Origin: Leptolyngbya sp. SIOISBB
Lineage (GTDB): Bacteria > Cyanobacteriota > Cyanobacteriia > Phormidesmidales > Phormidesmidaceae
DNA length: 64,000 nucleotides
Assembly: GCA_010671905.1 (NCBI GenBank)
Contig: JAAHII010000001.1
Location: 7,650,026 to 7,714,025, forward strand
Direction: 5' to 3'
The position numbers and the translations under genes were made by a program. Shown one piece after another: positions 20,541-25,497 of this stretch (the stretch's first letter is position 1; each line of letters opens with the position of its first letter). Under the pieces are notes generated by a model. The model had not been told where the DNA came from and made no database searches. It saw only the letters and a program-made list of their open reading frames with translations.

Positions 20541-22310
20541 ATGAAAATTGCGATCGCTCAACTGAATCCCATCATTGGCGACTTAGCCCACAACACTGAC
20601 CAGATTTTGGCGGCAGTGCAGCAAGCGGCAGCAGGGGGAGCCAGGCTGGTGTTAACGCCGGAACTCTCACTCTGTGGGTATCCTCCCCGTGACTTACTCC
20701 TACGTCCCGGCTTGATTGCCGCGATGCGTCAGACGGTGGAAGCTCTGGCTACGCAAATACCGCCCGAAGTGGCGGTGCTGGTGGGCTTTGCCGAACCGAA
20801 TGCCGGTGCCCGCGATCGCGGCGAAAAGCCCCTCTATAACAGCATCGCCTGGCTCGAAAATGGCCAGGTGCAGCAGGTATTCCATAAGCAATTATTGCCC
20901 ACCTACGACGTGTTCGACGAAGACCGCTACTTTGAGCCGGGGCAGGCGATCAACTCCTTGCACCTACCTTTGCCCAATGGCCAGCAAATCCACATTGGGG
21001 TCACCATCTGTGAGGACCTGTGGAACGACGAGCAATTTTGGGGCCAGCGCAAATATCCCAATAACCCCATCGCGCAACTCAAGGAGGCGGGGGTTGACTT
21101 AATTGTGAATCTGTCAGCCTCACCGTTTACGGCGCAAAAGCAACCGATCCGCGAGGCGATGTTAGCTCACAGTGCCCAACGGTTTCAGGTCCCCATTGTG
21201 TATGCCAATCAGATTGGCGCAAATGACGATTTAATTTTTGATGGCCGCAGCGTGGCCGTCAATCGTCAAGGGGCGTTGATGACTCGGGCAACCGCCTTCC
21301 ACGATGATCTTGTGTGGCTGACTTATGACCCCCAAGCGGCAGACTTGCAGGCGGGACTAATCGCCCCCGCGATCGCTGATATCAACGCAGAAATTTGGGC
21401 GGCTTTAGTGCTCGGGGTAGCAGATTATGCCCGTAAATGTGGCTTTAGTCAGGCCGTGATTGGCCTGAGTGGGGGCGTGGATTCCGCTCTGGTCGCGGCC
21501 ATTGCCGCCGCTGCTCTTGGGCCAGACAATGTGCTAGGCGTGCTCATGCCCTCCCCCTACAGTTCTGAGCACTCCATCAGTGATGCAGAGGAATTGGTGC
21601 AGAATCTGGGGATTCGCAGTGAAAAACTAGCGATCGGCCCCCTGATGTCGGGGTATGACGAGACGCTTGCAGCACTATTTGAGGGCACTGAGTTTGGCGT
21701 GGCGGAAGAAAACATTCAGTCACGCATTCGGGGAAATCTGCTGATGGCGATCGCCAACAAGTTTGGCCATCTACTGTTATCGACCGGCAACAAATCGGAA
21801 ATGGCCGTCGGTTACTGCACCCTCTACGGCGATATGAACGGGGGTCTCGCGGTCATCGCTGACGTACCAAAAACTCGGGTCTACCGCATCTGTGAATGGC
21901 TAAATCAGCATCCTGAAGTCATCTTGAACCAGGTCCAGGCGGCGGCTAAAGCCGATTCCATCATTCCCCGCAATATTTTGACCAAGGCCCCCAGCGCCGA
22001 ACTTAAACCTGGGCAAGTCGATCAGGATTCTCTGCCGAGCTATGAAGTGCTGGACGATATTTTGGAACGACTGGTGCAACGCCACGAAGCGGTTGAAGAT
22101 ATTGTGGCCGCAGGCCATGACCTGACCGTGGTGAACAAAGTCGTGCGCTTGTTAAGTCGGGCCGAATTCAAACGTCGCCAAGCCCCGCCGGTACTAAAAG
22201 TGACTGATCGCGCTTTTGGGTCGGAATGGCGCATGCCGATCGCTAGCCGCTGGACGGGTAACCTCGTGCCTCAAGCAGCGATCGCGTTGACGCCTTCTAC
22301 CGCTGCTTAA
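20541..22310 (+). CDS. nadE: Glutamine-dependent NAD+ synthetase
   Basis: NadE amidates deamido-NAD using ATP and ammonia from glutamine. The 589-residue protein has an N-terminal nitrilase-like glutaminase domain: Glu in TPELSLCGYPPRD, Lys in FHKQLLPTYD and the Cys nucleophile in GVTICEDLWND. A channel links it to the C-terminal synthetase with the PP-loop GLSGGVDSAL near residue 310. GNKSEMAVGYCTLYGD is also diagnostic. The gene follows the NrtR-like gene after 147 bases that carry a half-copy of the pncB operator, so it may have its own regulated promoter. Confidence 0.96.
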   Translation: MKIAIAQLNPIIGDLAHNTDQILAAVQQAAAGGARLVLTPELSLCGYPPRDLLLRPGLIAAMRQTVEALATQIPPEVAVLVGFAEPNAGARDRGEKPLYNSIAWLENGQVQQVFHKQLLPTYDVFDEDRYFEPGQAINSLHLPLPNGQQIHIGVTICEDLWNDEQFWGQRKYPNNPIAQLKEAGVDLIVNLSASPFTAQKQPIREAMLAHSAQRFQVPIVYANQIGANDDLIFDGRSVAVNRQGALMTRATAFHDDLVWLTYDPQAADLQAGLIAPAIADINAEIWAALVLGVADYARKCGFSQAVIGLSGGVDSALVAAIAAAALGPDNVLGVLMPSPYSSEHSISDAEELVQNLGIRSEKLAIGPLMSGYDETLAALFEGTEFGVAEENIQSRIRGNLLMAIANKFGHLLLSTGNKSEMAVGYCTLYGDMNGGLAVIADVPKTRVYRICEWLNQHPEVILNQVQAAAKADSIIPRNILTKAPSAELKPGQVDQDSLPSYEVLDDILERLVQRHEAVEDIVAAGHDLTVVNKVVRLLSRAEFKRRQAPPVLKVTDRAFGSEWRMPIASRWTGNLVPQAAIALTPSTAA

Positions 22311-22718
22311 GTAGAAGAGTACGAGTTGGGGCTGCCAGCAAGCGTCATATGCACGGAGTGGTGGGGATATCCTCTTGGCAAGAGCACCGGTCAGCGAGCA
22401 ATCCATCGGATATCAATTAATTGAAAACCAATCTCAGAAAGAATGCAGTCACTTTAGCGGTGTTTCCTTAGGGTGCGTCATCAATTAATCCCAGAAACCT
22501 TTAGGAATCAGCATTATCGCGCCCGCATTCACTCTATAGGCTAGGGGCTGTTGCTCTCTCACTGCAAGGATTTGACCGTTAAATGATGACAGGCCCTAGT
22601 AAAAACAAATTATGATTGACCGCCTTCAAGGTTTTCAAGATCACTTCTTGCAGGCTAAATAGACTTTGAATACGACGGTTCTGAATTGTCAGAGCCGTCC
22701 TCCACTCACCAAAGGCTA

Positions 22719-22746
22719 TTGACACTAGCTTTCAATAAGCTAGAAT
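22719..22746 (+). promoter_or_regulatory. Consensus-like sigma70 promoter of the sRNA candidate
   Basis: TTGACA at 22719-22724 and TAGAAT at 22741-22746 are separated by 16 bases, one of the best -35/-10 pairs in the window. Transcription would start near 22753. Confidence 0.65.
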
Positions 22747-22752
22747 ATTCTT

Positions 22753-22834
22753 AACTTGAAGGCTCACATGTTGAGCATTCCTGTTCTCCTCTCAATAATG
22801 ATTTAGGTGTTTCTGCGGAGGCACCTATTTTTGT
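22753..22834 (+). ncRNA. Candidate small regulatory RNA (Yfr2-like), ~80 nt
   Basis: A strong promoter is followed after about 50 bases by a perfect 9-bp stem with a TGCG loop and a T-rich tail. The transcript would be about 80 nt with no open frame. Its unpaired centre has CCTGTTCTCCTCTC, and the 3' hairpin has TTTCTGCGGAGGCACCT. From memory this resembles the abundant cyanobacterial Yfr2 RNA family, but I cannot verify that without a covariance search. It lies alone between nadE and a sensor kinase. Confidence 0.6.
22805..22834 (+). terminator. Rho-independent terminator of the sRNA candidate
   Basis: AGGTGTTTC pairs with GAGGCACCT (including two G-U pairs) around a TGCG loop, followed by ATTTTTGTG. 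Confidence 0.7.
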
Positions 22835-23256
22835 GTTTACAGACCATCCTTGGCAATACGGACCTTTGCCCAAAAAGGCGATCGCCGCTGAGTGTTTTTT
22901 CCAAAATCCGGGAATAGTGAACGTGTGGATTTGGTAAAGATTATCTAGAAAATATCAGCAGCATTTTCGCCAGTCATCCGCACTCCGTACTTTTACCGGG
23001 TTACCTCAACAGCTTGTTGACCCGACTCCGATTCGCCGGTTGCCAATGGTGAATCGGACTTCTGGTAATCGGTGGTTAAGCAAGGCTGAGTAAAGGGTGT
23101 GATTGCGGCAACTTGAATATTTGTCAGGTATTCGAGCTGATGCGATTAGCCACATTCTCGATAGTGTTAACGGGTGTTTGATGGCTGTGACCGCCACACC
23201 GGTTGGCTTGCCACCCACTGCTCGGGCTGATTGTTGTCTTAGTGTCCTGATTGGAT

Positions 23257-25497
23257 ATGACTGAAGAGTTATTTACCCTCAACCCCCTTTCTACCAGTCG
23301 AAAAGTGACCGATACTCTCCCTGCTATTCCTGCCATCTTAGATACCATCGCCGACCCCATCTTTTTGACGGCTCCAGATGGCCAGTGGGTGTATGTCAAT
23401 CAAGCTTGCTGCGACTTGTTTGGGTTGCCTCAATCAACTTTGCTGGGGCGACCAGATACGGTTTGGCTGACCCATGTAGGCTTGGATATCTTGCAGGGAT
23501 CGCAGCACAAGGCGTTGACGACCCAAGCTACGCAAGAACGGGAAATTGCGCTCCGCGATCGCGATGACGATATTCGCATTCTGGCCGTCAAAATCAGCGT
23601 GATGACGACGGTTGAGTCGGCGGTTTTTCTAGTCCATACTCTACGGGATATTACGTACCGAGTTGAAGCCGAGCAACGCCTGCAGCGAGACTCTCGCCGC
23701 GAGCGGCTGTTAGGGGCGATCGCCAAACATTTGCTCCAATCCATGCGGCCTGCCACTTTACTGGAACGCAGTATGGAAGAGGTGCGGCGCTTTTTAGAAG
23801 CGGATCGGGTTTTGTTCTATAACTTGCGGCCCGATCATATTGGCGTCATTGCTGAGGCCGTGGTGCCTGACCAATGCTCGCTTAAAGAAATTTTGCTAGA
23901 GCATACTGGCTTTGAGCAGTCAGAACTCGACCAGTACCAAAATGGCGAGGCTCAGGTGATTGAGAACGTGGATGAAGCCAATTTGTCTGTCGAGTTCAAG
24001 AGTCATTTACAAGCCTTTGGGATTCAGTCCCATGTGGCCATTCCCGTGATGCAGGGAGACGGCCTGTTGGGCCTGATTTGTGTGCATGATTGTTGCCATC
24101 CCCGACCTTGGCTACCGTGGGAAATTGAGGCGCTGAAAGATGTGGCCACGCAAGTGGGACGAGCGCTCGCCCAAGCGGATTTGTATACCGAGGTCAGCAA
24201 ACTCAACACCGAACTCGAAACCCAGGTCGAACAGCGCACCCGCCAGTTGCGGCAAGCCTTAGACTTTGAGGCGACCCTCAAGCGTATTGCTGATCGCGTG
24301 CGAGACAGCTTGGATGAGTCACAAATTTTGCAAACAGCGGTTGAAGAGTTAACGAGTGTGCTGGGAGCAAAAGGCTCTAACACGGCTCTGTACGATCTAG
24401 AGCAAGGCACTTCGACCATCTATTACGAGTACAACGAGTCCTTGCCACCCTATCAGGGACGGGTCGCTCAGATGGAAGCCTTTCCTGAGGTTTATCATCA
24501 GCTGCTCGATGGCCAATACTTTCAGTTTTGCTCTAAAGAGCCGAACCCAGTGCGGGGGCATGTGGCGATGTTTGCTTGCCCAATTCGCGACGATCGCGGG
24601 GTACTGGGAGACCTTTGGTTAATTAACGAAAAAAATTACGAGTTTGAAGATCAAGAAATTCGTCTGGTGCAGCAAGTCGCTAACCAGTGTGCGATCGCGA
24701 TTCGCCAAGCGCGACTTTATCAAGCTTCTCAAGCGCAAGTTAAAGAACTAGAGCGACTTAACCAACTGAAGGATGACTTTCTCAGTACGGTGTCCCACGA
24801 ACTGCGGACGCCAGTGACCAGTATGCGAGTTGCCCTACAGCTCTTGGGCGTCACCCTCAACCAAGAACTCAACCTCAACGAAGAACTGCAGAAGCCCAAA
24901 ACCAGTCAACACCGCGTGGCTCGTTACTACACAGTGTTGAAAGAAGAGTGCGAGCGCGAAATTAGTCTGATTAACGATTTACTGGACCTGCAACGGCTTG
25001 ACGGCGGCAATCATCCGATTACGCCTCAGCAAATCAATTTGTCCAGTTGGTTGACGGGCATCACAAACAGTTTTTACGAGCGCGCCCAAAGCCGTGAGCA
25101 AGCGATTAAGACTGATTTGCCCGCCACTCTGTCGCCGATTGTGAGTGACCAGGCCAGTTTAGAGCGGGTGTTTGCCGAACTGTTGAATAACGCTTGCAAG
25201 TACACGCCACCCGGCGAGACGATCTCGATTTCTGCGATCGCTGACACGGATGATCAGATCCTGGTAACCATCGCGAATACAGGAGTCGAAATTCCGGCGG
25301 CGGAGCTGCCCCGTATCTTTGATAAGTTCTACCGAGTACCGAGTTCTGATCCCTGGAAACAGGGCGGGACTGGCCTTGGTTTGGCGCTCGTACAAAAGCT
25401 GTTGGTACATATCGGGGGCGATATCCAAGTCACGAGCGATCGCTCCGGTACCGCCTTTAAGATCACCCTCCCGTTGGATATGACCCTCGCGGTTTAG
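23257..25497 (+). CDS. Sensor histidine kinase (PAS-GAF-GAF-HisKA-HATPase)
   Basis: A soluble-looking sensor kinase of about 746 residues with no transmembrane segment. An N-terminal PAS domain (about 25-135) is followed by a GAF domain (about 155-300), a coiled coil, and a second GAF (about 335-490). Next come the phospho-acceptor helix DDFLSTVSHELRTPV (His near 514) and a catalytic domain with ELLNNACKYTPPGE and GGTGLGLALV. I prefer the ATG at 23257 to the in-frame TTG two codons upstream. No chromophore cysteine in a canonical cyanobacteriochrome context is obvious. No response regulator is adjacent, so it is an orphan kinase. Confidence 0.88.
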   Translation: MTEELFTLNPLSTSRKVTDTLPAIPAILDTIADPIFLTAPDGQWVYVNQACCDLFGLPQSTLLGRPDTVWLTHVGLDILQGSQHKALTTQATQEREIALRDRDDDIRILAVKISVMTTVESAVFLVHTLRDITYRVEAEQRLQRDSRRERLLGAIAKHLLQSMRPATLLERSMEEVRRFLEADRVLFYNLRPDHIGVIAEAVVPDQCSLKEILLEHTGFEQSELDQYQNGEAQVIENVDEANLSVEFKSHLQAFGIQSHVAIPVMQGDGLLGLICVHDCCHPRPWLPWEIEALKDVATQVGRALAQADLYTEVSKLNTELETQVEQRTRQLRQALDFEATLKRIADRVRDSLDESQILQTAVEELTSVLGAKGSNTALYDLEQGTSTIYYEYNESLPPYQGRVAQMEAFPEVYHQLLDGQYFQFCSKEPNPVRGHVAMFACPIRDDRGVLGDLWLINEKNYEFEDQEIRLVQQVANQCAIAIRQARLYQASQAQVKELERLNQLKDDFLSTVSHELRTPVTSMRVALQLLGVTLNQELNLNEELQKPKTSQHRVARYYTVLKEECEREISLINDLLDLQRLDGGNHPITPQQINLSSWLTGITNSFYERAQSREQAIKTDLPATLSPIVSDQASLERVFAELLNNACKYTPPGETISISAIADTDDQILVTIANTGVEIPAAELPRIFDKFYRVPSSDPWKQGGTGLGLALVQKLLVHIGGDIQVTSDRSGTAFKITLPLDMTLAV

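Follow-up and report, generated by a model that had tools for sequence, protein, structure and literature searches.

A small RNA gene with a Fur-type promoter in Leptolyngbya sp. SIOISBB is best read as an IsaR1-type gene with an added 5' domain

Small RNA genes with their own promoter and terminator raise the question of what regulates them and which messages they address. Such a gene was proposed by a sequence-only reading of the 64,000-nucleotide stretch of DNA analysed here (hereafter the window), which described a promoter followed by a hairpin delimiting an RNA of ~80 nt, perhaps of the Yfr2 type. The RNA gene (22753-22835) sits in the gap between the genes for NAD+ synthase (20541-22310) and a histidine kinase (23251-25497). 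Its parts and surroundings are as follows.

22753..22835, + strand: predicted small RNA of ~83-84 nt, its two ends placed by means of the promoter and the terminator
22719..22724, + strand: -35 element TTGACA, from a sequence scan, identical across 8 aligned loci
22741..22746, + strand: -10 element TAGAAT, from a sequence scan, its position conserved in the alignment
22716..22738, no strand assigned: Fur-box-like palindrome CTATTGACACTAGCTTTCAATAA covering the -35 element and the spacer, 16/20 against a generic Fur consensus
22753..22785, + strand: clade-specific 5' domain, a predicted hairpin closed by AAC...GUU, from the fold and a consensus structure with two-sided pair changes
22786..22798, + strand: putative target-pairing segment CUCCUCUCAAUAA, unpaired in the fold, with TGTTCTCCTCTCA invariant in 8 loci and complementarity to petF1 and sodB
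22804..22832, + strand: intrinsic terminator with a 10-pair stem, TGCG loop and T run, from a scan, with two-sided changes at 4 pairs across relatives
22418..22440, no strand assigned: possible second Fur-like site, weak (15/20), ~300 bp upstream of the RNA

The proposed promoter (TTGACA, a 16-nt spacer and TAGAAT) is indeed present; it agrees with the consensus at 11/12 positions and is the best promoter-like site within 21000-25000, where 7 such sites occur against 2.9 expected in shuffles. No plus-strand open reading frame of at least 40 aa overlaps the RNA locus, in agreement with the same reading. The predicted fold of 22753-22836 (-23.7 kcal/mol, z = -2.17) consists, in order, of the 5' hairpin with its AAC/GUU closing pairs, the open segment CUCCUCUCAAUAA and the terminator; CCTGTTCTCCTCTC occupies 22780-22793 of the window sequence. 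The TGCG loop and the T tail (TTTTTG) of the terminator were correctly described, but the stem (22804-22827) contains 10 pairs, two of them G-U, and not nine. Terminator-like sites alone are not above chance in the region (4 against 4.1 expected), and it is because of its conservation in relatives that we consider the locus to be more than a chance arrangement.

Of 95 related genomes, 8 (the window's own among them) were matched in a DNA search. In an alignment of 8 loci, TATTGACA and TGTTCTCCTCTCA are invariant, and 94.4% of cells pair as the consensus structure requires; changes on both sides affect 7 pairs. This pairing fraction was reached in 0/500 shuffles and this number of two-sided changes in 1/500, a control that is not to be taken as a probability because the sequences are related; slid versions paired in 39-51%. 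The promoter, the pyrimidine segment and the terminator are thus conserved as one unit in relatives, with covariation in the stems, and the ~80-nt RNA of the sequence-only reading, which had named covariance as a check, is supported.

In the class as a whole, an RNA-only model matched 23/388 genomes, some evidently by chance: when read, weak R1 matches (e.g. L022-L025, L027, L029, L031) resemble chance or tRNA/terminator matches. A promoter-blind pattern of seed, gap and terminator T run was found in 42/388 class genomes and its reversed version in none. The short form (AGTGTTCTCCTCTCAAAGGATCGGCAGGTGGGG...) lacks the 5' hairpin; modelled as sequence together with its promoter, it gave a candidate in 158/291 class genomes, and forms of several lengths occur within the window's family. 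Scanning named genomes with the pattern pointed to four contigs: that of Synechocystis salina LEGE 00031, two labelled as uncultured Halomicronema and, probably by chance, one from a goat-colon bacterium. The RNA is present in all 5 genomes of the genus to which S. salina LEGE 00031 and G251 belong. As side observations, members of genus g110 carry two copies of the RNA gene with different seed flanks (L108 and L109 in G255; also G226, G232, G250 and G261), and the seed AGTGTTCTCCTCT is doubled in tandem at L102 (G077).

Within the promoter lies a palindrome of 23 bp compatible with a Fur box; its TTATTGA-N9-TCAATAA spans the -35 element and the spacer. Scored over 20 positions against a generic Fur consensus, this putative binding site is the only one in the window to reach 16/20; 22418-22440 and one other site tie for second place with 15/20. 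The palindrome keeps the 7-1-7 Fur layout, a model described for Anabaena together with a FurA site of 19-23 bp ending in CTCAATAAAT (PMC4005646). Using a 23-position score on loci picked promoter-blind, a Fur-type score of at least 14 was obtained in the 90 nt upstream of 28/30 loci versus 0/473 control windows; the two loci without a Fur-like site (L033, L036), which look like chance matches, are counted among these 30. Many short forms have a second Fur-type site upstream, whereas the promoter of the window RNA has one.

In its own genome, the palindrome occurs at 11 sites with at most one mismatch, the RNA gene included, and 0 times in the reversed control. Not all of these sites front iron genes: two lie inside open reading frames and one precedes a BrnA-type antitoxin. 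For each of the eight palindromes outside open reading frames, the RNA gene's own aside, one neighbouring protein was scanned, plus one behind a related promoter. Matches beside palindromes were a TonB-dependent siderophore receptor, a flavodoxin (436 bp away), an AMP-binding enzyme, a class I aldolase, a Crp-type regulator and the BrnA antitoxin, and a FecCD gene stands behind the similar promoter (L133 1501-1539); two of the nine scanned neighbours had no protein family match. Further promoters of the TTGACA...CTCAATAAGCTTA type were seen in the genus (L132 1501-1540, L133 1501-1539, L131, L134). The one at L132, in a sister genome, precedes exbB-, exbD- and FecCD-like genes (names read from the sequence), and at L130 (G004) the seed-like GTGTTTCTTGCTCCTCTC comes after a similar promoter, perhaps within the leader of an exbB-like gene.

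The unpaired pyrimidine-rich segment had been suggested to pair with Shine-Dalgarno regions, and target prediction agrees with this proposal. Complementarity to CUCCUCUCAA is seen at the ribosome-binding sites of petF1, encoding ferredoxin (7/7 genomes), and sodB, encoding superoxide dismutase (5/5). Calculated with each genome's own RNA segment and leaving aside folding within either RNA, duplex energies ranged from -18.1 to -31.2 kcal/mol for petF1 and from -18.5 to -26.1 kcal/mol for sodB. Each of these start regions outscores all 45 background window ORFs, whose starts, set at the first ATG of long ORFs, are approximate. The weakest petF1 duplex of the seven is that of the window's genome (-18.1 kcal/mol, with 12/500 shuffles as good); its sodB site was equalled by 1/500. 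Other ferredoxin paralogs, scored without two loci at contig ends, gave -4.1 to -15.2 against the window RNA. A superoxide dismutase family search had no match in G003, G004 and G021, and G012 has another, longer dismutase, which scored -3.7. Among 12 distant genomes, 11 had petF1 duplexes of -22.9 to -30.4 kcal/mol and the twelfth (G187) only -16.7, with the site at an inconsistent place; across the 12, 0-23/500 shuffles were as good. For sufB, no strong site was found within 60 nt upstream of the start in any of 7 genomes (-5.4 to -13.6 kcal/mol).

The complement of the seed, allowing one mismatch, has few sites. The window's genome holds 5: the small RNA gene and four others, all of which lack a long-ORF start codon just behind them. 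In G004 the numbers were similar with a reversed control. Seed-complementary ribosome-binding sites close to a start (L167 and L165, near 1501) were also noticed in G005, at a Rieske-type gene, and in G001, at a GDT1-like transporter gene.

Four Synechocystis-type genomes carry CUUCUCAA in the RNA where most others carry CCUCUCAA. The petF1 sequence facing it is TTGAGAAG in three of the four and TTGCGAAG in G263, and the petF1 site reads TTGAGAGG in G079, G192, G230 and G302. The differences in RNA and petF1 of the Synechocystis-type genomes are two-sided changes that preserve the predicted pairing, and they hint at joint change of the RNA and the ferredoxin message across the phylum.

IsaR1 of PCC 6803, whose published transcription start site is 3164320, has petF among its targets. 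It is an RNA of 68 nt (PMC6202907), described as conserved in cyanobacteria and as a repressor of iron proteins (PMC6202907, PMC12090762, PMC6753628, PMC11126600); the published targets include sodB (PMC11126600) and, in the operon sufBCDS, sufB (PMC12090762). The Fur-type promoter and the predicted targets indicate IsaR1, and we are highly confident that the locus is an IsaR1-type, putatively Fur-repressed small RNA gene, a relative of IsaR1. On the features set out here, we class the locus with IsaR1 as an ortholog whose 5' domain is clade-specific: the best reading is a 5'-extended form of ~84 nt particular to this clade, identified by its features and not by alignment to the 6803 gene. The order of seed, promoter and terminator is common to the window RNA and the Synechocystis RNA, from which homology to the 6803 gene is inferred. 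Counted by eye, the Synechocystis-type homologs, that of S. salina among them, end ~66-68 nt after their presumed start. The S. salina homolog is flanked by crtH on one side and ldpA on the other; upp and crtH are named alongside IsaR1 in a review (PMC13414033). A ~70 nt RNA called NC-181 is strongly induced on iron loss according to a Northern blot (PMC3516471), and our guess is that it is IsaR1. The candidate ncr1600 was rejected as IsaR1, being Nc117, and a literature text search for the seed sequence matched only unrelated papers.

Orthology was weighed against an iron-responsive, Fur-controlled RNA analogous and not orthologous to IsaR1, which would have gained the same targets separately. 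The window RNA does differ from the short form in 5' domain, spacing and terminator, and sufB is not predicted; however, both forms share the promoter palindrome, the TGTTCTCCTCTCA core and the order up to the terminator, and several length forms coexist in the window's family, so that we regard separate origin as improbable. Slightly less probable still is an ortholog of PsrR1, the high-light RNA that RpaB frees on leaving HLR1 and that base-pairs to mRNAs of photosystem I and phycobilisomes. PsrR1, too, is cyanobacterial and pairs at ribosome-binding sites, and the window promoter matches HLR1, sites of which are described as repressing when located over -38 to +23 (PMC13421787), at 12/16 positions. 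That score is, however, reached by 49 sites in the window, and among 28 promoters (L033 and L036 omitted) the control maximum was exceeded by the HLR1 score in 0 and by the Fur score in 28. Compared by its published description, PsrR1 is moreover 131 nt long versus ~84 nt here (ends inferred), RpaB-controlled and devoted to the high-light response, while target prediction here yielded petF1 and sodB; PsrR1 had been our initial idea and was set aside when Fur outscored HLR1. Yfr2, one of the Rfam families and likewise a short RNA of cyanobacteria that has a promoter and a terminator to itself, is very improbable, since cmscan with 4227 Rfam families gave no match in the window at gathering score and, on 22650-22900, none credible and none to Yfr2 at E up to 10; with 0/4227 models matching, annotation that relies on Rfam would miss this RNA.

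Under the IsaR1 reading, Fe-Fur would occupy the palindrome across the -35 region and block transcription when iron is sufficient; the gene thus looks to be switched off by Fur under plentiful iron. When iron is scarce, Fur would leave and the ~84-nt RNA would be made. Its unpaired CUCCUCUCAA could then pair with the ribosome-binding sites of iron-protein mRNAs (petF1, sodB), block their translation and so spare iron. Under these conditions the RNA probably blocks the synthesis of iron-containing proteins such as ferredoxin. What in silico analysis reveals is the promoter, the conserved RNA, the Fur-type palindrome and a predicted target complementarity with clade-matched changes. More tentatively, and with the odds rather against it, the 5' hairpin domain may be a functional addition, in which pairing of AAC with the GUU of the seed would hide the conserved UGUU and shift recognition to CUCCUCUCAACAA and to iron-sparing targets of the lineage's own. 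Through this locus, an experimentally known iron-sparing RNA would extend to a lineage where its 5' architecture is different.

Compared with IsaR1 of PCC 6803, the window RNA has in common the Fur-type promoter, the unpaired pyrimidine seed, the terminator and, as predicted partners, the ribosome-binding sites of petF1 and sodB; moreover, the Synechocystis-type homolog matches IsaR1 in length. The window RNA differs by its ~84 nt with an extra 5' hairpin domain, by a seed that reads CUCCUCUCAA and not CUCUUCUCAA, and by the sufB site, which is not predicted for it. RyhB of enterobacteria and PrrF of pseudomonads are Fur-repressed RNAs that spare iron by lowering the synthesis of iron proteins, SodB included. 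The window RNA, read as IsaR1-type, would work alike, a resemblance of function for which, with no Rfam match, we claim no relation in sequence.
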